From: Manis javanica
Taxonomy: Eukaryota > Chordata > Mammalia > Pholidota > Manidae
Length of the DNA stretch: 64,000 nt
Assembly: GCF_040802235.1 (NCBI RefSeq)
Contig: NC_133156.1
Span: 186,260,351 to 186,324,350 of the forward strand
Direction of reading: 5' to 3'
Below, piece by piece: positions 6,971-55,419 of the stretch. The position numbers were made by a program, and so were the translations under genes. Below the pieces are notes generated by a model. It was not told where the DNA came from. It ran no database searches and worked only from the letters and a program-made list of their open reading frames with translations. Each line of letters starts with the position of its first letter. Within the stretch, counting starts at the first letter, position 1.

Positions 6971-8690
6971 AAGGCATACCTCATTTTATTGTGCTTCATT
7001 TTATTATGATTCACAGATATTGAACTTTTTACAAATTGAAGGTTTATGGCAATCCTGTAGCAAGCAATTCTATTGGTATCATATTTCTGATAGTGTTTTG
7101 CTCCCTAATATCTCTGTCACATTTTGTAATTCTCACAATCTTTCAAACTTTTATTATGAGTGTATTGGCTCTGGTGATCTGTGATCAGTGATCTTTGATG
7201 TCATGCTTACAGTTGTTTTGGAGTGCCAGTAATCATGCCCATGTAAGATAGTGACCTTCATTGATACATGTTTTATGCATTTTGACTACTCCGCCAACAA
7301 GAAATTCCTCCATCCCTCTTCCTTTCCTCAGGCCTCTCTATTCCCTCTCTATTCCCAATATTGAAATTAGACCAGCTAATAACCCTATGATGGCCTCCAA
7401 GTGTTCAAGTGAAAGGAAGAATCTCATGTCTTTCACTTTAAATCAAAAGCAAGAAATGATTAAGGTTTGTAAGGAAGGCATGTTGAAAGCAGAGACGGGC
7501 CAAAAGCTAGGCCTCTTATGCCAAACAGCGAAGTTGTGAGTAGAAAGGAAAAGTTCTTGAAGGAAATTACAAGAGCTACTCCAGTAAACACAGACAAATG
7601 AGAAGAAAGTGAAACAGCTTTTTGCTGATATGGAGAAAGTTTTAGTGGCCTGGATAGAAGGTTACACTAGCCACAACACTCCTTTAAGCCAAAGCTCAAT
7701 ATTTTGAGCCCAATGTTGGGACTAACTGCTCAGAAAAAAAATATCCTTTCAAGATATTTATGCTCATTGGCCACACACCTGGTCACCCAAGAGCTCTGAT
7801 GAACATGTACAAGATTAATGTGGTTTTCATGCCTGCTAACATAACATAGATTTCATTCTTCAAATATTTCAGCATAGCTTCTGTTACAATATGGATTTCA
7901 AATATCAACAGTAGCAGGAGTTCGGAAGAAGTTGATTCCAACCCTAATAGGTGACTTTGGGGCTTCAGGACTTCAGTGGAGGAAGTAACTGCAGATGTGG
8001 TAAAAATAGCAAGAGAACTAGAATTATAAGTGGAGCCTGAAGATGTCACTTAATTGTTGCAATCTCACAATAAAACTATCAGATGAGCAATTGGTTCTTA
8101 TGGATGAGCAAAAAGACTATTTTCCTGAGATAGCAACTATTCCTGAGGAGGATGCTGTGAAGACTTGAAATGACAACAAAATATTTAGAATATTATATAA
8201 ACTTAGTTGATAAAGCAGTGGGAAGCTTTGAGAGTACTGAGTAAAATTTTAAAAGAAGTTCTACTGTGGGTAAAATGTTACCAAACAACATTACACGATA
8301 TAGAGAAATTGTTCATGAAAGAAGAGGCAACCTTATTGTTGTCTTATTTTAAGTAATTGCCACAGCCCAGCATTCAGCAACCATAACCCTGACTAGCCAT
8401 CAGCCATCAGCACTGGGGCAATATCCCCCACCAAAAAATGTGTGACTCACTGAAAGCTCAGAAGATGGTTAGCATTTTTTGCAATAAAATATTTTAATTA
8501 AGATACGTATGGGGTTTTTTTTGTACATTTTTTTTGGACTTAAGCTATTACACAATTAATAGACTAGAGTGTAAACATGACTTTTATATGTAGTAGGAAA
8601 CCAAAAAATTTCTTTGACTTACTTTATTGTGATAATGACTTTGTTGTGATTTTGTGGAACCAAACCTACAATATACCCAAGATATGCTTA
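6971..8690 (+). mobile_element. Tigger1 DNA transposon, internally deleted
   Basis: Both ends match the Tigger1 (pogo/Tc1-mariner superfamily) terminal inverted repeat: aaggcatacctcattttatt at the left and caagatatgctt at the right, flanked by TA and a decayed CA. Recognisable internal landmarks include the transposase N-terminus near 7388-7540, the segment encoding the second catalytic aspartate near 7745-7800, and the 3' part after 7880. The element is about 1.72 kb, against roughly 2.4 kb for the family consensus. The missing sequence lies mainly near 7700-7730, where the middle of the transposase gene is absent, with a second gap near 7870-7890. It cannot encode transposase. Confidence 0.92.
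7388..8060 (+). pseudogene. Tigger1 transposase remnant
   Basis: The natural start is at the ATG of ATGGCCTCCAAGTGTTC near 7388. The frame stays open for about 50 codons, giving MASKCSSERKNLMSFTLNQK and the beginning of the CENP-B/pogo-type helix-turn-helix DNA-binding domain. It then stops near 7539. Downstream, out-of-frame pieces correspond to the DDE/D catalytic core and C-terminus. A live enzyme would bind the inverted repeats and cut and paste the element at TA sites. Large deletions remove the first catalytic aspartate region, so this copy is dead. Confidence 0.8.
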
Positions 8691-10892: not shown

Positions 10893-11747
10893 ATGAAATG
10901 CCAAAGGAACCTTGTCCAGAGTAAAATTGTTAATACAACTCCCAAGAAAGATTTAAATGATATGGACCTTGTGACTCTTCCTGAAAGGGAGTTCAAAATA
11001 AAAATCATCAACATCCTAATGGAGGTACGAAAAGACATCCAAGAACTCAGGAATGAATTCAGGTCAGAGATCCAATCGTTAAAGAACACGATGGAGGGTA
11101 TTAAAAGCAGGTTGGATACGGTGGAGGAGACAATAAATGAAATAGAAACTAGAGAAGAGGAATACAAAGAAGCTGAGGCACAGAGAGAAAAAAGGATCTC
11201 TAAAAATGAAAGAATATTGAGAGAAATGTGTGACCAATCCAAGCGGAACAATATTCGCATTATAGGGATACCAGAAGAAGAAGAAAGAGAAAGGGATAGA
11301 AAGTGTCTTTGAGGAGGTAGTTGCTGAAAACTTCCCCAATCTGGGGAAGGACATAGTCTGTCAGGCCATGGAGATCCACAGATCCCCCAACACAAGGGAC
11401 CCAAGGAAGACAACAGCAGACACATAGTAATTAAAATGGGAAAGATCAAGGATAAGGACAGACTGTTAAAAGCAGCCAGAGGCAGAAATAAAATCACATA
11501 CAAAGGAAAGCCCATCAGACTAACATCAGACTTCTCAGCAGAAACCGTACAAGCCTGTAAGGTTTGGAAGTGGCATGATGTATTAAGTGCCATGAAGCAG
11601 AAGGGCCTGGAACCAAGATTACTTTATCCAGCAAGATTATCATTTAAATTTGAAGGAGGGATTAAATAATTTCCAGATAAGCAAAAGCTGAGAGAGTTTA
11701 CCTACCAAAAACCATCTCTGCAGTCTATTTTGGAGGGACTGCTATAG
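10893..11747 (+). pseudogene. L1 ORF1 (RNA-binding nucleic-acid chaperone), frameshifted
   Basis: ORF1 protein of a live L1 forms coiled-coil trimers that coat L1 RNA. Here the first 139 codons are open: an N-terminal basic segment (MKCQRNLVQSK), a heptad-rich coiled coil at about residues 40-105, then the start of the RRM-like domain (RNNIRIIGIPEEEE). A one-base indel near 11285 shifts the frame; the expected FEEVVAENFPNLGK segment continues in another frame. A second indel near 11418 precedes another open stretch (MGKIKDKDRLLKAARG, C-terminal domain, 11436-11669). A nonsense change at about 11667 cuts before FPDKQKLREF. At least three disabling lesions. Confidence 0.92.
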
Positions 11748-12038
11748 ATGGAAGTGTTCTTATGGTTGGATAGCTGTCACCAGAGGTAGTAAAATCATGG
11801 TAGGGAGAGTGGAGCAGCTGATTGTGAGGCAAATGCAAAATTAAATTGACTATCCCCAAGTCAATTAAGGGATAGACAAAAAGTACAGAATTTGATACCT
11901 AATATATAAAGAATGAAGGAGGAAGAAAAAGGAGGAGAAATAGAAAAGAACCTTTAGATTGTGTTTCTGACAGCATACTAAGTGAGTTAAGTTAGACTCT
12001 TAGATAGTAAGGAAAGTAATCTGGAACCTTTGGTAACC

Positions 12039-15000
12039 ATGAATCTAAAGCCTGAAATGGCAATAAGTACATACCTATCGATAATCACCCTAAATGTAAA
12101 TGGACTGAATGCACCAATCAAAACACATAGTGTCACTGAATGGATAAAAAACAAGACCCATCTATATGCTGCTTACAAGAGACTTACCTCAAACCCAAAG
12201 ACATGCACAGACTAAAAGTCAAGGGATGGAAAAAGATATTTCATGCAAACAATAGGGAGAAAAAAGCAGGTGTTGCAGTACTAGTATCAGACAAAATAGA
12301 CTTCAAAACAAAGAAAGTAACAAGAGATAAAGAAGGACATTACATAATGATAAAGGGCTCAGTCCAACAAGAGGATATAACCATTATAAATATATATGCA
12401 TCCAACACAGGAGCACCAGCATACGTGAAACAAATACTAACAGAACTAAAGGAGGAAATAGACTGCAATGCATTCATTTTGGGAGACTTTAACACACCAC
12501 TCACCCCAAAGGACAGATCCACCAAACAGAAAATAAGTAAGGACATAGAGGCACTGAACAACACACTAGAACAGATCGACCTTATAGACATCTGTAGAAC
12601 TCTATACCCAAAAGCAACAGGATACACATTCTTCTCAAGTGCACATGGGACATTCTCCAGATTAGACCACATACTAAGCCACAAAAAGAGCCTCAGTAAA
12701 TTCAAAAAGATTGAAATCCTACCAACCAACTTTGCAGACGACAAAGGTATAAAACTAGAAATAAATTGTACCAAGAAAGCAAAAAGGCTCACAAACACAT
12801 GGAGGCTTAACAACACGCTCCTAAATAGTCAATGGATCAATGACCAAATTAAAATGGAGATCCAGCAATATATGGAAAGAAATGACAACAACACAAAGCC
12901 ACAACTTCTGTGGGATGCAGCAAAAGCAGTCTTAAGAGGAAAGTATATAGCAATCCAGGCATATTTAAAGAAGGAAGAACAAACCCAACTGAATAGTCTA
13001 ATATCACAGTTATCAAAAGTGGAAAAAGAAGAACAAATGAGGCCTAAAGATAGCAGAAGGAGGGACATAATAAAGATTAGAGAAGAAATAAACAAAATTG
13101 ACAAGAATAAAACACTAGAAAAAAATCAATGAAACCAAGAGCTGGTTCTTTGAGAAAATAAACAAAATAGATAAGTCTCTAGCCAGACTTATTAAGAGAA
13201 AAAGAGAATCAACACACATCAACAGAATCAGAAATGAGAAAGGAAACATCATGACAGACCCAACAGAAATACAAAGAATTATTAGAGACTACTATGAAAA
13301 CCTATATGCTAAGAAGCTGGAAAACCTAGAAAAAATGGACAACTTCCTAGAAAAATAGAACTTTCCAAGACTGACCAAGGAAGAAACACAAAATCTAAAC
13401 AAACCAATTACCAGCAAAGAAATTGAAGCGGTAATTAAAAAACTACCCAAGAAAAAACACCCGGGACAGATGGATTTACCTCAGAATTTTATCAGACATA
13501 CAGAGAAGATATAATACCCATTCTGCTTAAAGTTTTCCAAAAAATAGAAGAGGAGGGAATACTCCCAAACTCATTCTATGAAGCCAACATCACTCTAATA
13601 CCAAAACCAGGCAAAGACCACGCCAAAAAAGAAAACTACAGACCAATATCCCTGATGAACATAGATGCAAAAATACTCAATAAAATATTAGCAAACAGAA
13701 TTCAAAAATATATCAAAAGGATCATACACCACAACCAAGTAGGATTCATCCCAGGGACGCAAGGATGGTACAACATTCGAAAATCCATCAGCATCATCAA
13801 CCACATCAACAAAAAGAAAGACAAAAACCACATGATCATCTCCATAGATGCTGAAAAAGCATTTGACAAAATTCAACATCCATTCATGATAAAAACTATC
13901 AGCAAAATTGGTATAGAGGGCAAGTACCTCAACATAATAAAGGCCATATATGATAAACCCACAGCCAACATCATACTGAACAGCGAGAAGCTGAAAGCTT
14001 TTCCTCTGAGATCGGGAACAAGACAGGGATGCCCACTCTCCCCACTGTTATTTAACATAGTACTGGAGGTCCTAGCCATGGCAATTAGACAAAACAAAGA
14101 AATACAAGGAATCCATATTGGTAAAGAAGAAGTTAAACTATCACTATTTGTAGATGACATGATATTGTACATGAAAAACCCTAAAGACTCCACTCCAAAA
14201 CTACTAGAACTAACATCCCAATTCAGCAACGTTGCAGGATACAAAATTAACACACAGAAATCTGTGGCTTTCCTATACACTAACAATGAGCCAATAGACA
14301 GAGAAATCAGGAAAACGATTCCATTCACAATTGCATCAAAAAGAATAAAATACCTAGGAATAAACCAAAGAAGTGAAAGACCTATACCCTGAAAACTATA
14401 AGACACTCTTAAGAGAAATTGAAGAGGACACTAACATGGAAACTCATCCCATGCTCTTGGCTAGGAAGAATTAATATTGTCAAAATGGGCCATCCTGCTC
14501 AAAGCAATATACATATTTGATGCAATCCCAATCAAATTAACAACAACATTCTTCAACGAACTAGAACAAATAGTTCAAAAATTCATATGGAAACACCAAA
14601 GACCCAGAATAGCCAAAGCAATCCTGAGAAAGAAGAATAAAGTGGGAGGGATCTCACTCCCTAACTTCAAGCTCTACTACAAAGCCATAGTAATCAAGAC
14701 AATTTGATACTGGCACAAGAACAGAGCCACAGACCACTGGAACAGATTAGAGACTCCAGACATTAACCCAAACATATATGTTCAATTAATATTCAATAAA
14801 GGAGCCATGGACATACAATGGGGAAATGACAGTCTCTTCAACAGATGGTGCTGGCAAAACTGGACAGCTACATGTAAGAGAATGAAACTGGATCACTGTC
14901 TAACCCCATAAACAAAAGTAAATTCAAAATGGATCAAAGACCTGAATGTAAGTCATGAAACCATCAAACTCTTAGAAAAAAATATAGACAAAAACCTTTT

Positions 15001-15871
15001 AGATATAAACATGAGTGACCTCTTCTTGAACATATCTCCATGGGCAAGGAAAACAAAAACAAAAATGAACAAGTGGAACTATATCAAGCTGAAAAGCGTC
15101 TGTACAGCAAAGGACACCATCAATAGAACAAAAAGGTACCCTACAGTATGGGAGAATATATTCATAAATGACAGATCTGATAAAGGCTTGACATCCAAAA
15201 TATATAAAGAGCTCATGCACCTCAACAAACAAAAAGCAAATAATCCAATTAAAAAATGGGCAGAGGAGCTGAACAGACAGTTCTCCAAAGAAGAAATTCA
15301 GATGGCCAACAGACACATGAAAAGATGTTCCACATTGCTAGTTATTAGAGAAATGCAAAGTAAAACCACAATGAGATATCACCTCACACCAGTAAGGATG
15401 GCTACCATCCAAAAGACAAACAACAACAAATGTTGGCGAGGTAGTGGAGAAAGGGGAACCCTCCTACACTGCTGGTGGGAATGTAAATTAGTTCAGCCAT
15501 TGTGGAAAGCAATATGGAGGTTCCTCAAAATGCTCAAAATAATCTTACCATTTGACCCAGGAATTCCACTTCTAGAAATTTACCCTAAGGATGCAGCACT
15601 CCAGTTTGAAAAAGACAGATGCACCCCTATGTTTATCACAACACTATTTACAATAGCCAAGAAATGGAAGCAACCTAAGTGTCCATCAGTAGATGAATGG
15701 ATAAAGAAGATGTGGTACATATACAGAATGGAATATTATTCAGCCATAAGAAGAAAACAAATTCTACCATTTGCAACAACATGGATGGAGCTAGAGGGTA
15801 TTATGCTCAGTGAAATAAGCCAAGTGGAGAAAGACAAATACCAAATGATTTCACTCATCTGTGGAGTGTAA
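12039..15871 (+). pseudogene. L1 ORF2 (endonuclease / reverse transcriptase), multiply disrupted
   Basis: In a live L1, ORF2 protein nicks the target and reverse-transcribes L1 RNA there. Domains in order: endonuclease 12039-12800 (LNVNGLN, QETYLK, GDFNTPL, SRLDHILSHKKSL), linker, reverse transcriptase about 13440-14400 ([42 protein letters not shown]), and C-terminal region ending with the cysteine/histidine segment [10 protein letters not shown] and stop at 15871. Lesions include a frameshift near 12150, a frameshift near 13120, a stop near 13356, a frameshift near 13450, a frameshift near 14375, a stop near 14706 and a stop near 14911. The endonuclease SDH triplet reads ADD, losing the catalytic histidine. 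The RT box usually FADD reads FVDD; both aspartates remain. Confidence 0.94.
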
Positions 15872-16215
15872 GAACAAAAGAAAAACTGAAGGAACAAAAC
15901 AGCAGCAGAATCACAGAACCCAAGAATGGCCTAACATTTACCAAAGGGAAAGAAACTGGGGAGAATGGGAGGGTAAGGAGGGATAAGGGTGGGGAAGAAG
16001 AAAGGGGTATTATGATTAGCATGTATAATGTGGGGGGTGGCGGAATGGGGAGGGCTTTGCAACACAGAGAAGACAAGTAGTGATTCTACAACATCTTACT
16101 ATGCTGATGGACAGTGACTTTAATGAGGTTTGTTGGGGGGACTTGGGGTAGGGGAGAGCCTAGTAAACATAATGTTCTTCATGTAATTGTAGATTAATGA
16201 TAACAAAATAAAAAA
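15872..16215 (+). repeat. L1 3'UTR and A-rich tail
   Basis: Contains G-rich stretches (aatgtggggggtggcgg, near 16026) typical of L1 3'UTRs and ends in aaaataaaaaag, which supplies a polyadenylation-signal-like AATAAA near 16206. Confidence 0.8.
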
Positions 16216-22412: not shown

Positions 22413-22734
22413 TTTTTTTATGGTATCATTAATATACAGTCACATAAGCAATATTGTAGTTGCTAGATTTCCCCCATTTTCAAGTCCCCACCCCATTACA
22501 GTCACTGTCCATCAGCATAGTAAGATGCTATAGAGTCACTACTTGTCTTCTCTGTGCTACACTGCTTTCCCCATGCCCTCATCCCACTATATTATGTGTG
22601 CTGATCATAATGCCACTTAATCTGCTTATCTCTCCCTTTCCCCCACAACCTCCCCAGGCGTTTGGTAACTGTTAGTCCATTCTTGGTTTCTGTGAGTCTG
22701 CTGTGGTTTTGTTCCTACAGTTTTTGCTTTGTTG

Positions 22735-25700
22735 TTACACTCCACAGATAAGTGAGATCATTTGGTACTTGTCTATCTCTGCCTGGCTTATTTCACTGAG
22801 TATAATACACTCTAGTTTCATCCATGTTCTTGCAAATGGTAGGATTTGTTTTCTTCTTATGGCTGAATAATATTCCATTGTGTATATATACCACTTGTTC
22901 TTTATCCATTCATCTCTTGATGGGCCCTTAGGTTGCTTCCATTTCTTGGCTATTGTAAATAATGCTGCAATAAACAGGGATGCATATGTCTTTTTGAAAC
23001 TGGGCTCCTGCATTCTTAGGGTAAATTCCTAGGAGTGGAATTCCTGGGTCAAATGGCATTTCTATTTTGAGTTCTTTGAGGAACATCCATACTGTTTTCC
23101 ACAATGGTTGAACTAATTTACATTCCCACCAGCAGGGTAGGAGGGTTCTCCTTTCTCCACATCCTTGCCAACATTTGTTGTTGTTTGTCTTTTGGATGTT
23201 GGCCATCCTAACTGGTGTGAGGTGATATTTCATTGTGGTTTTAATTTGCATTTCTCTGATGATTAGCATTGTGGAGCATCTTTTCATGTGCCTGTTGGCC
23301 ATCTGAATTCCTTCTTTGGAGAAGTGTCTGTTCAGATCCTCTGCCCATTTTTTAATTGGATTATTTGCTTTTTGTTTATTGAGGTGCATGAGCTATTTAT
23401 ATATTTTGGATGTCAACCCCTTATCAGATATGTTATTTGTGAATATATTCTCCCATACTGTAGGATGCCTTTTTGTTCTACTGATGGTGTCCTTTGCTAT
23501 ACAGAAACTTTTCAGCTTGAGATAGTACCACTTGTTCATTTTGCTTTTGTTTCCCTTGCCCAGGGAGATATGTTCATGAAGAAGTTACTCATGTTTATAT
23601 TCAAGAGAGTTTTGCCTAAGATTTCTTCTAAGAGTTTAATGGCTTCATGACTTACATTCAGGTGTTTGATCCATTTCAAGTTTTCTTTTGTGTATGGAGT
23701 TAGATGCTAATCCAGTTTCATTCTCTTACATTGTAGCTGTCCAGTTTTCCCAAAACCAGCTGTGGAAGAGGCTGTCATTTCCCATGGCTCCTTTATCATA
23801 TATTATTTGACCATATGTGCTTGGGTTAATATCTGGACTCTATTCTGTTCCATTGGTCTATGGATCTGTTCTTGTGCCAGTACCAAATTGTCTTTATTAC
23901 TGTGGCTTTGTAGGAGAACTTAAAGTTGGAAAGCAAGATCCTCCCTGCTTTATTCTTCCTTCTCAGGATTGCTTTGTCTATTTGGGGTCTTTTGCAGTTC
24001 CATAAGAATTTTAGAACTATTTGTTCCAGTTTATTGAAGAATGCTGTTGATATTTTGATAGGGATTGCATTGAATCTGTAGATTGCTTTAGGTAGGATGG
24101 CCATTTTGACAATATTAATTCTTCCTACCCAAGAGCATGGGATGAATTTCCACTTATTAGTGTCCTCTTTAATTTCTCTTAAGAGTGTCTTGTAGTTTCC
24201 AGGGTATAGGTCTTTCACTTCCTCGGTTAGGTTTATTCCTAGGTATTTTATTCTTTTTGATGCAATTGTGAATGGAATTGTTTTCCTGATTTCTCTTTCT
24301 GTTAGTTCATCATTAGTGTATAGGAATGCAACAGATTTCTGTGTATTAATTTTGCATCCTGCAACTTTGCTGAATTCAGATATTAGATGTAGTTATAGAG
24401 TGGATTCTTTAGGATTTTTTATGTACAATATCATGTCATCTGAAAACATTGACAGTTTAACTTCTTCCTTACCAATCTGGATGCCTTTTATTTCTTTGTG
24501 TGGTCTGATTGCCATGGCTAGGACCTCCAGTACTGTGTTGAATAGAAGTGGGGAGAGTGGGCATCCTTGTCTTGTTCCTGATTTTGAAAGAAAAGCTTTG
24601 AGCTTTTCACTATTAAGTATGATGTTGGCTGTGAATTTGTTGCATATGGCATTTATTATGCTGAGGTACTTGCACTCTATACCCATTTTGTTGAGAGTTT
24701 TTATCATGAATGGATGTTGAATTTTGTCAAATGCTTTTTCAGCATCTATGCTGATCATGTTATTTTTGTCCTTTTTGTTGATGTGGTGGATGATGTTTAT
24801 GGATTTTCAAATGTTGTACCGTCCTTGCCTCACTGGGATGAATACCTCTTGATTATGATGTATGATCCCCTTGGTGTATTTTTGTAATTTGGTTTGTTGA
24901 GTATTTTTGTATCTATGTTCATCAGGGATATTGGTCTATAGTTTTCTTTTTTTTGGTGTCTTTGCCTTGTATTGGTATTAGAGTGATGCTGGCTTCATAG
25001 AATGAGTTGGAGAGTATTACCTCCTCTTCTATTTTTTTTGAAAACTTTAAGGATAATAGGTATTATGTCTTCTCTAAATTTCTGATAGAATTCAGCAGTG
25101 AATCCATCTGGACCAGGAGTTTTGTTCTTGGGTAGGTTTTTGATTACCAATTCAATTTCATTGCTGGTAATTGGTCGGTTCAGATTTTCTGTTTCTTCCT
25201 GGGTCAGTCTTGGAAGGTTGTATTTTTCTAGGAAGTTGTCCATTTCTTCTAGGTTATCCAGTTTGTTAGCATATAATTTTTCATAGTATTCTCTCATAAT
25301 TCTTTGTATTTCCATGGTGACTGTAGTGATTTCTCCTTTCTCATTTCTGATTCTCTTTATATGTTTAGATTCTCTTTTTTTCTTCGAAAGTCTGGCTAGG
25401 GGTTTATCTATTTTGTTTATTTTCTCGGAGAAACATCTCTTGATTTCATTCATTTTTTCTTTTGTTTTATTCTTCTCAATTTTATTTATTTCTTCTCTGA
25501 TCTGTATTATATCCCTCCTTCTACTGACTTTGGGCCTCATTTGTTCTTTTTCTAGTTTCAATAATTGTGAATTTTGACTATCCATTTGGAATTGTTCCTT
25601 CTCCAAATAGGCCTGGACTGTTATATACTTTCATCTTAGTACTGCCTTCACTGTGTCCCACAGAATTTGGGGAATTGTGCTGTTTTTTTATTTTTCTCCA

Positions 25701-26526
25701 TATATTGTTTGTTCTCAGTTTTAACTTGGTCATTGTTCCAGTGATTTTTTAGAAGCATGTTGTTAAGCCTCTTGTGATTGTGAGCCCTTTTTTTTTTTCT
25801 TTACAGTTTATTTCTCATTTCATATCCTTGTGATCTGAGAAGCTGGTTGGTACAATTTCAATCTTTTTGAATTTTGAGGCTCTTTTTGTGGTCTAGTATG
25901 TGATCTATTCCAGAAAGTGTTCCATGTGCACTTGAGAATAATGTGTATTCTGCTGCTTTTGGGTGGAATGTTCTGTAGATATTTGTTAGGTCTATCTGTT
26001 CTGATGTGTTGTTCAGTACCTCTGTCTCCTTATTTCCTGTCTGGTTGATCTGTCTTTTGGAGTGAGTGGTGTGTTGAAGTCTCCTAAAATGAATTGATTG
26101 CCTTCTATTTCCCCATTTAATTCTGTTAGTATTTGTTTCACATATGTAGGTGCTCCTGTGTTGGGTGCATAGATATTTATCATGGTTATATCCTCTTGTT
26201 GGACTGACCCCTTTATCATTATGTAATGTCCTGTTTGTCTCTTGTTACTTTCTTTGTTTTGAAGTCTATTTTGTCTCATAGAAGTACCGCAGCACCTGAT
26301 TTTTTCTCTCTATTGTTTGGATGAAATATCTTTGTCCATCCCTTCACTTTCAGTCTGTGTATATCTTTGGGTTTGAAGTGAGTCTCTTTTAGGCAGCATA
26401 TAGATGTGTCTTGCTTTTTATCCATTCTGTAACTCTGTGTCTTTTAATTGGCACATTCAGTCCATTTACATTTAGGGTGATTATCAATAGATATGTACTT
26501 ATTGCAATTGCAGGCTTTGAATTCAT
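22735..26526 (-). pseudogene. L1 ORF2 (endonuclease / reverse transcriptase), multiply disrupted
   Basis: The start ATG is the complement of 26524-26526, in the same context (ggtaaccatgaa) as the plus-strand copy, and the stop is at 22735. Visible pieces: an endonuclease segment with QEDITMINIYAPNTGAP and GDFNTPLTPKD (26013-26279), a linker (24995-25606, including [16 protein letters not shown]), an RT core with [13 protein letters not shown] and [13 protein letters not shown] (24393-24758), a thumb-like part (23826-24218), and the C-terminal cysteine/histidine region with [10 protein letters not shown] (22928-23389), where the usual histidine before CWWEC is proline. The RT box reads FSDD rather than FADD. 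The endonuclease SDH triplet is still encoded near 25845 but out of frame with the rest. Confidence 0.93.
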
Positions 26527-26814
26527 GGTTACCAAAGGTTCAAGAGCAGCTTCTTTACTATCTAGCAGTCAAATTTACTTCACTTATTATGCTATTGTAA
26601 ATAGCATCTGATGATTCTTTTTTCTCTCCCTTTTCCTTCCTCCTCCACTCTTTATATGTTAGGTGTCATATTCTGAACTCTTTGTGTATCCCTTGACTGA
26701 CTTTGTTGGTAGCTGATTTAATTTTGCATTTCCTTAGTATTTAGTTAGTCTACTTCCTTTGCTGTGGTTTTATTTTCTCTGGTGAAAGCTATTTAGCCTT
26801 AGGCATAATGCCAT

Positions 26815-27663
26815 CTAGAGCAGTCCCTTTAAAATACACTGTATAGATGGTTTGTGGAAGGTAAATTCCCTCAACTTTTGCTTATCTGGGAATTGTTTAA
26901 TCCCTCTTTCAAATTTAAATGATAATCTTGCTGGATAGAGTATTTTTGGTTCAAAGTCCTTCTGTTTCATTGCATTAAATGAATCATGCCACTCTCTTCT
27001 GACCTGTAAGGTTTCTGCTGAGAAGTCTGATGATAGCCTGATGGATTTTCCTTTGTAGGTGATCTTTTTTCTCTCGCTGGCTGCTTTTAATACTCTGTCC
27101 TTGTCTTTGATCTTTGCCATTTTAATTATTGTATGTCTTGGTGTTGTCCGCCTTGGGTCCCTTGTGTGGGACATCTGTGGACTTCCTTGGCCTGAGAGAC
27201 TATTTCCTTCCCCAGATTGGGGAATTTTTCAGCAATTATCTTCTCAAATACACTGTCCATCCCCTTTTCTCTCTTCTTCTTCTTCTGGTACCCCTATAAT
27301 GCAAATATTGTTCCATTGGGATTGGTCACACAGTTATCTTAATATTCTTTCATTCCTAGAGATCCTTTTTTCTCTCTCTGCCTCAGCCTCTCTGTATTCC
27401 TGTTCTCTGATTTCTATTCCATTAACAGTCTCCTCCACCTCATCTAATCTGCTTTAAAATTTCTCCCTTGTTTGTTTCATTTCTGTTATCTCCCTCCTGA
27501 ATTCATTCTTTAGCTCTTGAGTATTTTTCTGTAGCTCCATCAGCATGCTTATGACTTTTATTTTGAATTCTTTTTCATAAAGATTGGTCATTTCATTCTC
27601 ACTGAGCCCTCTTTCTGGTGTTTGAGGTATTTTGGATTGAACAAGGTTCTTCTGCCTTTTCAG
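26815..27663 (-). pseudogene. L1 ORF1, disrupted and start codon lost
   Basis: Homologous to ORF1 of the plus-strand copy. The expected start position is CTG instead of ATG (27663-27661), although an upstream in-frame ATG at 27747 keeps the frame open for 97 codons through the coiled coil. A stop at 27454-27456 ends that stretch (EMKQTREKF). The RRM-like middle is shattered. The C-terminal domain is open again at 26815-27174 (HTIIKMAKIKDKDRVLKAAS to LKGLL) with the natural stop. Both ends are recognisable, but the protein cannot be made whole. Confidence 0.9.
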
Positions 27664-47324: not shown

Positions 47325-47336
47325 AATAGAACCTAA
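47325..47336. repeat. Target-site duplication, left copy (chimeric retrocopy)
   Basis: aatagaacctaa, repeated exactly at 48192-48203. It lies four bases upstream of the U2 copy. Confidence 0.85.
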
Positions 47337-47340
47337 CCTA

Positions 47341-47535
47341 ATCTCTTCTCGGCCTTTTGGCTAAGATCAAGTGTAGTATCTGTTCTTATCAGTTTAGTAT
47401 CTGATACGCGCTCTATCCGAGGACAATATATTTAGTGGATTTTTGTGGCAAAGAGATGGAATAGGAGCTTGCTCCGTCCACTCCACACATCACGCATCCA
47501 TCTAGTATTGCAGTACCTCCAGGAACAGTGCGCCC
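47341..47535 (+). pseudogene. RNU2: U2 snRNA retro-pseudogene (5' moiety of chimera)
   Basis: Matches U2 spliceosomal RNA from its first base: 'cttctcggccttttggctaa' (stem-loop I), the branch-point recognition core 'gtgtagtatctg', stem-loop II, the Sm-site region, and the 3' half with 'ggaataggagcttgctccgtcc' and 'gtattgcagtacctccagg'. Differences: base changes in stem IIa/b (gcgctctatcc), an altered Sm/downstream segment (gatttttgtggcaaag), and a 7-base local duplication (acacatc/acgcatc) at about 47487-47500 that lengthens it to ~195 nt against ~188-191. The upstream DNA shows no DSE/PSE-type snRNA promoter, so it is a copy rather than a gene. Confidence 0.95.
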
Positions 47536-47690
47536 CCTCAAGGGGAAATAAACGTCTGTTGAAGATCAGTTGGAAGGTGCGGTTGCATGGCCTGGGGTTA
47601 GCTCAGACTTAGCTCTGATGTCAGGCTGTGAGCTCGAGCTTTAGTTTTTAGTTCTTACTTTCCTTGATGGGGACGCGGGCATCAAGCTCT
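47536..47690 (+). other. Chimera segment of unassigned origin between U2 and LRRC37-like part
   Basis: About 150 bp between the U2 3' end and the first recognisable LRRC37 codons. Its composition is GC-richer than the flanks. It may be 5'UTR or an alternative exon of the same mRNA; I cannot match it. Confidence 0.5.
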
Positions 47691-48055
47691 CACTTACTCG
47701 TAAATCTGAGTCATAATCCTCTGACAACTATTGAAGATTCATATCTTTTTAAATTGCCAGGGTTAAAAAATTTATTTATTCCCATAGAGGAGCAGCTCAA
47801 GATAAAGAAGGAAGCTCAAGGGGCTCCTTTCGATTTCTGCTGTATAGGAGATCCTCAGTTTAGTATCTGAGAGTGAGAGTCAGGAGAGCTTTTTCTGGAG
47901 AAGGCGGCCACTTTGGCTCAGGGACATGTATAGACCCCTCAATGCCACACCACAAAAAATGTGGCGACAAAGATTCTGATGAGGATGAGATTTTCAGCAA
48001 AGGTGCAGGGGAGCTCAGCGAAGTCCTAGTAGGGAAGCTTCTGACTTCAGCGTGA
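47664..48055 (+). pseudogene. LRRC37: LRRC37-family processed pseudogene (3' moiety of chimera)
   Basis: Two regions encode LRRC37-like protein. At 47691-47771 a leucine-rich-repeat segment reads NLSHNPLTTIEDSYLFKLPG. At 47872-47949, in a different frame, the cytoplasmic-tail segment reads ESFFWRRRPLWLRDMYRPLN, followed after another frameshift by DKDSDEDEIF (47966-47995). In LRRC37 proteins a long region separates the repeats from the tail; here they are only ~100 bp apart with no intron, so the source was a spliced, possibly exon-skipped transcript, or the copy has an internal deletion. At least two frameshifts and a stop at 47868 make it non-coding. LRRC37 genes are testis-expressed, which fits germline retrocopying. 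Family identification is from remembered motifs. Confidence 0.8.
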
Positions 48056-48158
48056 GCTGCTCAAGAGTTCGGGGAGGAGAGTGAAGCACAATACCCCACC
48101 GCAGAGTGAGCCCAGCCTGCCCCAGCCCACCTACAACGTTTCTAATATTGGTTTATCA

Positions 48159-48190
48159 ATAAAATACATAATTTTCTCTCAAGAAAAAAA
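48159..48190 (+). terminator. Polyadenylation signal and A tail of the retrocopied mRNA
   Basis: AATAAA at 48159-48164, about 20 bp before the A-rich stretch at 48181-48190 that precedes the target-site duplication. Confidence 0.8.
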
Positions 48191-48191
48191 T

Positions 48192-48203
48192 AATAGAACC
48201 TAA
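48192..48203. repeat. Target-site duplication, right copy (chimeric retrocopy)
   Basis: aatagaacctaa, identical to 47325-47336. Confidence 0.85.
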
Positions 48204-48609
48204 GTCTTGCTACTTTTGCCAAGAAGCTAAGAGGAAAACCCAAAATCAAAACTATTGTACATAGAAGAGAGTAAGAGCATCCTGTATCCTTTGAGACTCA
48301 TGGTAACTAATGTGCATGTGGTGGCACCTTACCCAGTCACCGACTTTGTTTTTAAGAGGTGCCATGATGGGTAGTGCAACAGGTCAATCTGATCATTCAA
48401 CAGTGTGATCTTGGTTTCCCTGGCCTGTTTGCCGTTCTGCAGTTGTGTCCATGTGTAGGTAGAAAAAGGCTCAGCAAAGAGTGAGATTCAAACAGATTTT
48501 CCCCAGTCCTAGTCATTATCATGGCTGGAAGGTGTGAGGGAGAAGTTTAAAGCTGTTGGCTACCAGAAAGTATTTAAAATTTAAATAATATATACACCTC
48601 TTCCATCTC
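48204..48609. other. Unassigned sequence
   Basis: Nothing recognised. Confidence 0.4.
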
Positions 48610-53063: not shown

Positions 53064-55419
53064 CAGGCATAATCCTTTAATATTCCAGACACCATGACAA
53101 AGTGAACATCACAATAAGGCAAGTCTAATGACGTTTTTGGTTCCCAAGTGTATATAAAAGATATCTTTATATTATACTGTCATCTATTAAATGTGCAATA
53201 GCATTATGTCTGAGAAAACAATGTGTATACCTTAACTTAAAAATACGTTATTGCTGACTTTCACCTTAACTTCCAGAGAGTCCTAGTCTTTTTGCTGGTG
53301 GAGGTTCTTGCCTCAAGGTTGACGCCTGCTGACTGATCAGGATAGTGGCTGCTGAAGGTTGGGGTGGCTGTGACGATTACTTAAAACAAGATAATAATGA
53401 AGTTTGCTGCATCCGTTGACTCTTCCTATCACTAGCAGTTTCTCTCTAGCATGGGTTGCCGTTTGACAGCATTTTAGCTACAGTAGAACTTCTTTAGAAA
53501 TTGGAGTCAAGTCCTCTCAAACCCTGCCACTGCTTTATCAACTGCATTTATGTAACATTCTAAATCCTTTTCTCCCATTTCAATAATCTTCACAGCAGCT
53601 TCACTAAGAGAAGATTCCACCACAAGAAACCACTTTCTTTGCTCATCCATAAACAGCAACTCTTCATTCATTAAAGTTTTGTCATGAGATTATAACAATT
53701 CAGTCACCCCTTCAGGATCTACTTCTAACTCTCATTCTCTTTCTCTTTCTACCACATATGCCATTACTTCCTCCACCAAAGTCTTGAATCCCTCAAAGTT
53801 ATTCATGAGGTTGGAATCAACTTCTTCTAAACTCCTGTTAAAGGTTGACATTTTCACGTCTTTCCAGGAATCGTGAATGTGCTTAATGACATCTAATGGA
53901 GAATCCATTACAGAAGGTTTTTAATTAACTTGCCCAGATCAATCAGAGGAATCACTATCTATGGCAGCTATAGCCTTATGAAATATATTTCTTAAATAAT
54001 AGGACCTGAAAGTCAAAATTACTCTTTGATCTATGAGCCTCAGAATGGATGCTGTGTTACCACGCATGAAAACATTAACCTCATTGCACATCTCCATCAG
54101 AGCTATTGTGTAACCAGGTGCATTATCAATGAACAGTAGTATTTTGAAAGGAATCTTTTTTTCTGAGCAATAGGTCTCAATAATGGGCTTAAAACATTCA
54201 GTAAGCAAGCTGTAAACAAATGTTCTGTCATCCAGGCTTTGTTATTACATTTATAGAGCACAGGCAAAGTAGATATGGCACAATTCTTAGGAGCCCTAGG
54301 ATTTTCAGAATGGTAAAATAAGCATTGGCTTCATCTTATGGTCACCAGTTGCATTCCCCCAACAAGAGAGTCAGCCTGTCCTTTGAAGCTTTGAACCCAG
54401 GCATTAACTTCTCCTTTCTAGCTAGAAAAAGTCCTAGACGGCATCATCCTCCATTATAGGGCTGTTTCATCTATATTGGAAATCTATTGTTTAGGGCAGC
54501 CATGTTCATTAATCCTCTGAGATAGATCTTCTGGATAATTTGCTACAGCTTCTACATCAGCACTTACTACTTCACCTTACACTTCTATTTTGGAGATGGC
54601 TTCTTTCCTTAAACCTCATAAACCAACCTCTGTTAGCTTCGAACTTTTCTTCTGCAGCTCCCTCACCTCTCTCAGCATTCATAAAATTGAAGAGTTAGGG
54701 CCTTACTCTGGATTAGACTTTGTCTTAAGGGAGTGCTGTAGCTGGTTTGATCTTCTATCCAGACCACTAAAACTTTCTCTCCATACCAGCAACAAGGCTG
54801 TTTTACTTTCTTATCATTGTGTATTCACTGGAGTAACATTCTTAATTTCCTGTAAGGAAGTTTCCTTTGCATTCACAACTTAGCTAACTGGTACAAGAGG
54901 CTTACTTTTCAGCTCATCTCTGCTTTTGACATACCTTCCTCACTAAGCTTAATCATTTCTAGCTTTTGATTTAAAGTGAAAGAGATGCAGCTCTTCCATT
55001 CACTTAAATACTTGAAGGCCATAGTAGAGTTATTAATTGGCCTAGTTTCAATATTGTTGTTTCTCAGGAAATAGAGAGGCCTTAGGAGAGGTAGAATGAT
55101 GGAGGAAAGGCTGTTCAGTGGAGCAGTCAGAAAACACATATAATTCATGAAGTTCACCCTCTTATATGGGTGGGGTTTGTGGCACTCCAAAACAATTACA
55201 ATAGTAACATCAAAGATCACTGATCACAGGCCACCATAGCAAATTTAATAATAATGAAAAAGTTTGAAATATTGTGAGAATTACCAAAATGTGACAGAGA
55301 CACAAAGTGAGCAAATACTGTTGGAAAAATGGTGCCAATAGACTGGCTCGATTTTTGAAAAGTGTTATATCTGCAAAATGCAATAAAAGGGAAGAGTAAG
55401 AAAACAAGGTATATGCTTG
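53064..55419 (-). mobile_element. Tigger1 DNA transposon, near full length
   Basis: Antisense Tigger1 of 2.36 kb, close to the ~2.4-kb family length. The left end (caggcataatc) follows TA at 53062-53063. The right end (aacaaggtatatgcttg) is followed by CA, a decayed TA. The sub-terminal repeat 'ctgcaaaatgcaataaaagg' is visible near 55372, and about 25 bp are missing just inside the right inverted repeat. The transposase gene runs from about 55022 leftward to about 53330. The element is eutherian-wide and tens of millions of years old by family knowledge. Confidence 0.93.
53330..55022 (-). pseudogene. Tigger1 transposase, disrupted
   Basis: Pogo-family transposase: an N-terminal CENP-B/psq-type helix-turn-helix, a central DNA-binding part, then a DDD catalytic core. 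The start ATG is the complement of 55020-55022, and SFTLNQKLEMIKLSEEG marks the helix-turn-helix. A stop follows within about 40 codons (54909). Downstream, the first catalytic aspartate context (IDETA) is preserved near 54460. The second (FIDNAPG) and third ([10 protein letters not shown]) sit in an open stretch of 89 codons at 53939-54208, ending [12 protein letters not shown]. The C-terminus continues leftward out of frame. The catalytic aspartates are still encoded but in broken frames, so it is inactive. Confidence 0.88.

Follow-up and report, generated by a model that had tools for sequence, protein, structure and literature searches.

Chimeric retrocopies that join a small nuclear RNA (snRNA) to LINE-1 (L1) sequence or to a processed pseudogene are a published class (U/L1 and U/pseudogene chimeras; PMC4476161, PMC13174262), and the available text of PMC4476161 cites Buzdin (2002, 2003) and Garcia-Perez (2007) for U6/L1 and U6/processed-pseudogene chimeras. 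The same text describes a survey of young copies in which snRNA template switching mostly involved U6/U6atac. In the census of Law and Burns (2026), as far as the accessible part of PMC13174262 describes it, the known partners named are U1, U2, U4, U5, U6, U3, and 5S, and 70.9% of the 253 chimeras involve U6. Template switching and RNA ligation have both been proposed for U6 chimeras (PMC13174262, excerpted text). For U2, the excerpt of PMC4476161 reports one U2/L1 chimera (Doucet et al. 2015), and tripartite chimeras with more than one template jump per insertion are described for Magnaporthe, human, and mouse in the accessible part of PMC2104539.

In a 64-kb window (the whole stretch of DNA analyzed), we read positions 47325 to 48203 as a dead U2/LRRC37 chimeric retrocopy that would have been produced by a single LINE-1-type target-primed event in the mammalian germline, with a probability of about 80%. 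No sign of present function was seen in the retrocopy. The two parts are co-oriented on the plus strand, with the snRNA on the 5' side and a spliced, polyadenylated mRNA partner, marked by exon joins, an AATAAA signal, and an A-rich end, on the 3' side. This is the arrangement of the U6 chimeras, which likewise have a full-length snRNA at the 5' end, a co-oriented and 5'-incomplete polyadenylated partner, and one target-site duplication. In contrast to those chimeras, the snRNA here is U2, a Pol II RNA with no U tail, the partner is a spliced LRRC37 mRNA, and 161 nucleotides (nt) lie between the two. The U2/L1 chimera of Doucet et al. also combines U2 with another RNA inside one duplication, but its U2 is 3' truncated and inverted by twin priming, according to the excerpt of PMC4476161, whereas the U2 here is full length and in sense orientation.

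The U2 part occupies 47341 to 47538 on the plus strand (Rfam RF00004, 135 bits, E value = 2.8e-28) and is the sole Rfam match at the gathering score in the 64-kb window. A sequence-only reading of the locus had placed the start at the exact 5' base of U2, which is borne out by RF00004 model position 1 at 47341, and the end at 47535, which falls short of the actual end at 47538. Because the alignment spans model positions 1 to 192 of 192, the copy is complete at both ends and begins and finishes at the mature ends or next to them. Aligned pairwise with human U2, the copy has 15 mismatches in 191 paired bases and carries 7 additional nt at 47484 to 47490. The human U2 sequence used is supported by P0020, an antisense U2 reading frame that is identical over 62 residues to one antisense frame of it. 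The 7-nt insertion, CACACAT ahead of CACGCATC, resembles a local tandem duplication.

One base of the U2 copy matters for what follows. The 16-nt stretch TCAGTTTAGTATCTGA at 47389 to 47404 (plus strand), which recurs as a direct repeat within the LRRC37 part, carries a G where U2 normally has A. Among the 120 antisense U2 open reading frames (ORFs) readable at this site, which are those listed among 1,169 matches, 118 have the residue of the normal base, one (P0018) has the G state, and one has another. P0018 also has a second change in common with the U2 of the window, and its ranking is due in part to these common changes, so that it offers weak evidence that the U2 RNA itself carried the G. 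P0018 and P0019 are antisense U2 frames with related flanks, and one further change seen in the U2 of the window is present in each of them; the two may come from a U2 gene variant in the host clade.

The LRRC37 part begins, in terms of demonstrable protein-level homology, at about 47691 to 47700 and extends rightward from there, so the earlier placement of its start at 47536 does not hold. It comprises a leucine-rich-repeat (LRR) exon, VNLSHNPLTTIEDSYLFKLPGLKNL, at 47700 to 47773, with a provisional left border (plus strand; tblastn, 76% identity to P0137 over 47700 to 47774, E value = 2.5e-9), followed without introns at 47774 to 48190 by the C-terminal exons beginning IYSHR, RGSF, ESFFW, and GAGEL (plus strand, tblastn frames 2 and 3) and by a 3' untranslated region. 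With the AATAAA at 48158 to 48163 and the A-rich end at 48181 to 48191, the earlier description of a spliced LRRC37-like 3' mRNA with a poly(A) signal and an A tail stands. A stitched translation (within 47691 to 48052) matched LRRC37 proteins of hyena (Hyaena LRRC37A2-like, P0001, E value = 1.6e-21), dog, whale, and slow loris, with 16 proteins at an E value of at most 10 among 34 candidates. When full-length proteins were admitted in a second search, 77 proteins reached this threshold among 185 candidates, the best being an LRRC37A2-like protein of Trichechus manatus (P0137, E value = 1.0e-28). A tblastn search with all 77 proteins gave no match elsewhere in the window at an E value of 1e-3.

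Predicted isoforms of other mammals (P0002, P0003, P0005, P0007, P0009, and P0010) have unlike sequences spliced to the segments beginning IYSHR, RGFF, and EGFFW, and these joins probably mark LRRC37 exon borders. Since the exons are contiguous in the window, the source RNA had been spliced. The central LRRC37 exons are absent, and the reading frame shifts at 47773/47774, which is the border of the IYSHR exon; we infer an exon-skipping source transcript in which exons of unlike phase were joined. Identity is highest with Trichechus (83 of 114 residues) and then Sorex fumeus (80 of 112), and in a tree built from 33 chosen of the 77 proteins, 2 of which were dropped for a missing motif, the window copy takes no supported placement and has a long end branch. 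Pfam searches of hand-made LRRC37 frames gave no domains or weak LRR matches only. In minke whale, two proteins (P0003 and P0004, the latter named RAD52 motif-containing 1-like) have unlike exons spliced onto LRRC37 C-terminal exons, and LRRC37 3' exons may thus be promiscuous splice acceptors.

Both parts lie within one target-site duplication. The 12-bp sequence AATAGAACCTAA at 47325 to 47336 (plus strand) is repeated exactly at 48192 to 48203 (plus strand), after the A-rich end, and has no further occurrence on either strand of the window. The sequence-only reading had the duplication flanking the whole unit; the exact 12-mer is present on both sides, and four extra bases, CCTA, at 47337 to 47340 (plus strand) separate it from U2 in the sequence and alignment. 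These bases represent either non-templated addition or a 5-nt slippage of CCTAA, and non-templated addition by ORF2p yields extra nucleotides at 5' ends (PMC10830420, excerpt). At the internal junction (47525 to 47570), no direct repeat of at least 7 nt with the 5' or 3' flank was found in the stretches compared, as had been stated before, and none was found between the start of the LRR exon (47680 to 47720) and the 5' flank in the compared stretches. The earlier claim that U2 joins LRRC37 without a tail survives in that the only candidate nearby is the short A-rich string AAATAAA at 47546 to 47552, which starts 7 nt past the U2 end and is in our view too short and too distant to be a U2 tail; it is less secure in that 161 nt separate the U2 end from demonstrable LRRC37 homology.

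These observations bear directly on whether the U2 and LRRC37 retrocopies could have been inserted separately, side by side. Two 6-mers, CTCAAG and AAATAA, are common to the junction and the 3' flank, and the AAATAAA string and the shared AAATAA point weakly to such a history. On the other hand, a single duplication surrounds both parts, and the lack between them of an inner duplication of at least 7 nt and of a real A tail disfavors separate events, which we regard as highly improbable.

The 161 nt at 47539 to 47699 (plus strand) have no demonstrable LRRC37 coding homology. Aligned alone, they scored 22 to 29 against six LRRC37 proteins, compared with means of 24.1 to 26.4 for 30 plain shuffles each, and LRRC37 coding sequence was accordingly rejected as their identity. 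Unrestricted frameshift-aware alignments anchored in the LRR exon ran left to 47624 for five of the six proteins and to 47609 for the other, by way of frameshifts and a stop, and tblastn of the stretch with the 77 proteins returned 55 rows up to an E value of 1, the best (E value = 0.038) on the opposite strand. Pfam and NCBIfam searches of its three sense frames found nothing, and an Rfam search of 47500 to 48230 up to an E value of 5 gave a single subthreshold match outside the 161 nt, at 47832 to 47920. RNA folding of 47539 to 47860 showed nothing notable (z = -1.08), and the promoter/terminator scan, which used bacterial consensus sequences, is uninformative here. The ratio of observed to expected CpG in the stretch (0.54) falls between those of U2 (0.69) and the LRRC37 part (0.34), far exceeds those of the two flanks (0.12 and 0.08), and suits inserted RNA-derived sequence. 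The stretch may consist of one or more noncoding 5' LRRC37 exons or may derive from a third RNA.

If it derives from a third RNA, the locus would be a tripartite chimera of U2, 47539 to 47699, and LRRC37 made by two template jumps. Such chimeras with duplications are published (PMC2104539, accessible part) and resemble this locus in requiring more than one jump, but they contain large segments of three RNAs, whereas this locus has an 8-nt patch (described below) and a 161-nt segment. The stretch matches no LRRC37 protein beyond chance and has a CpG content unlike that of the flanks, which speaks for a third RNA. A noncoding LRRC37 exon, however, would look the same in protein comparisons, and the Rfam, Pfam, and NCBIfam searches gave no family that would identify a third RNA. 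Moreover, the 67-residue protein P0011 covers the final ~33 nt of the stretch and continues directly into the LRR exon, so that at least the right end of the 161 nt is joined in the same way in the source of P0011. We consider a third RNA unlikely. The earlier interpretation as a single L1-type insertion fits the anatomy, while its term "bipartite" is not secure because of the 161 nt between the parts.

The same stretch would find a natural place, as U2 3' flank or as an intervening exon, if the two parts had formed a single RNA before reverse transcription, either by ligation or by splicing of a U2 read-through transcript into LRRC37 exons. Mature U2, however, is not known to carry the 2',3'-cyclic phosphate used by the ligase route on U6, and by eye the sequence past U2 is unlike the 3' flanks implied by the antisense ORFs P0018 to P0020. 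Ligation is accepted for U6/L1 chimeras and trans-splicing has been proposed for mRNA/L1 chimeras (PMC13174262, excerpt). We consider a pre-joined RNA a doubtful alternative for this locus. Joining of the parts by template switching is likely.

According to the preferred reading, a single event with template switching, reverse transcription would have started on a spliced LRRC37 mRNA, at its A tail, the template being an exon-skipping isoform in which the LRR exon is joined out of frame to a C-terminal exon. The enzyme, presumably that of L1, would have copied leftward to about 47539, jumped onto the 3' end of mature U2 snRNA, and copied to U2 base 1, after which the 5' end would have been joined with a few extra bases. 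In vitro, ORF2p gives template-jump products and adds non-templated bases (PMC10830420, excerpt). Several observations weigh against this account: the published survey of young copies, with its mostly U6/U6atac partners and its 3'-truncated, inverted U2/L1 case; the 161 nt that separate U2 from LRRC37 homology; the endonuclease site; and the failure to find a junction-crossing ORF among the matches listed (see below). The L1 endonuclease site consensus is TT/AAAA, and the putative site here, read by eye on the bottom strand as TATT/CT against TTTT/AA, is a poor match. The window also contains two long elements, at 10982 to 16214 and 22413 to 27583, which are oriented oppositely to each other and retain long ORF stretches; from their ORFs we take them to be LINE-1, and they may be related to the L1 whose enzyme was used. 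Elsewhere, 7069 to 8331 and 53415 to 55348 match other parts of the window, and similar short strings at 7942 (minus strand) and 53810 (plus strand) point to a single interspersed repeat present in diverged copies. No lineage-specific SINE was recognized among the repeats of the window.

Part of the retrocopy has counterparts in two proteins. P0011 and P0016 (67 residues each) are nearly identical to parts of it, matching the stitched query at 97% over 25% of its length and at 100% over 22%, respectively; compared by eye with the frames of the window, P0011 has a single difference in its 67 residues and P0016 has three, and at two of those three a W stands in place of a stop in the window. P0011 follows a path that runs out of frame across the exon join and then across the 8-nt insert, and this part is therefore present in another sequenced copy, which may belong to a related genome or to a second site of the same one. 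A search of public proteins for an ORF that spans the U2/LRRC37 junction gave 1,169 matches, and none of the 120 listed shared a 4-residue word with the first 24 residues of the query. The junction had 0 matches in viral contigs, and the insert had 0 matches in bacterial and archaeal genome contigs.

The 8-nt insert GTTTAGTA at 47858 to 47865 (plus strand) within an LRRC37 exon was recognized from a direct repeat and from protein spacing. Together with its flanks (47855 to 47870) it equals TCAGTTTAGTATCTGA, and is thus identical over 16 nt to U2 positions 47389 to 47404, including, in both copies, the G that is unusual for U2. The U2 stretch lies 466 bp upstream (start to start). The spacing from RG to GFF is almost constant in LRRC37 proteins: the pattern fits 40 of 93 proteins inspected, being 23 residues in 31, 22 in 7, 24 in 1, and 35, apparently misparsed, in 1; in the window it is 23 residues plus 8 nt, and the surplus can be placed as GTTTAGTA within the 16-mer. 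Because the match was spotted after the fact at a single locus, it could be a coincidence, the insert having arisen by an unrelated mutation. Against this, in 5,000 dinucleotide shuffles of the 3' part none reached a U2 match of 16 nt (one reached 15 and one 14), the insert inferred from spacing sits within the match, and the base unusual for U2 is present in both copies. Likewise, when the rest of the window was cut into 380 overlapping pieces of 650 nt and both strands were compared, the longest U2 match was 12 nt. We regard coincidence as quite improbable, and copying from U2 sequence is the most likely origin of the insert.

How it was copied is a matter of judgment rather than computation: the insert would reflect either one more short template jump during reverse transcription or later DNA-level copying. 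We lean slightly toward later copying at the DNA level from the upstream U2 part, which accounts for the common G at least as well as a hop during reverse transcription does. Origin during reverse transcription is a more tentative proposal, and some other route seems very improbable. By that tentative proposal, the insert would be a fossil of an L1 enzyme that, while copying the LRRC37 mRNA, hopped onto the U2 RNA and returned, all within one reaction and ahead of its final end-to-end jump onto U2, with the hop out made through a 5-nt pairing (TCTGA) and the return through up to 3 nt (TCA). A hop on 5 nt is possible, since ORF2p extends primers of 5 to 10 nt in vitro, those of 5 nt less efficiently (PMC10830420, excerpt).

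The U2 snRNA/LRRC37 pairing was not found in print in the open-licence literature searched, where co-mentions of RNU2 and LRRC37 are, by their listing, expression or biomarker studies. In the accessible part of PMC5322556, which deals with U2 retropseudogenes, chimeras are not mentioned. The Law and Burns census is human referenced and starts from L1 3' parts (PMC13174262, excerpt), whereas the 3' part here is an mRNA, and therefore, by the stated method, a locus ending in mRNA would not be scored. The suggestion that the chimera may be undescribed applies at most to the U2/LRRC37 pair, the class itself being published (PMC4476161, PMC13174262, excerpts). The partner pair is an uncommon one within a known class, and the patch deserves the most attention.

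Overall, the locus presents a full-length, sense U2 partnered with an mRNA, in contrast to the truncated, inverted U2/L1 case (PMC4476161, excerpt). If the patch arose later at the DNA level, the locus would be a chimera of the usual kind that went on to acquire a local templated mutation. If the hop is true, one insert would record that the enzyme changed three times between U2 and the LRRC37 mRNA, which would argue that U2 was kept near the reverse transcription complex and that the joining proceeded through switching and not through ligation. Template switching and ligation predict the same end product, whereas an internal snRNA patch in the mRNA part is predicted by switching alone, and such patches could therefore be sought across known chimeras.
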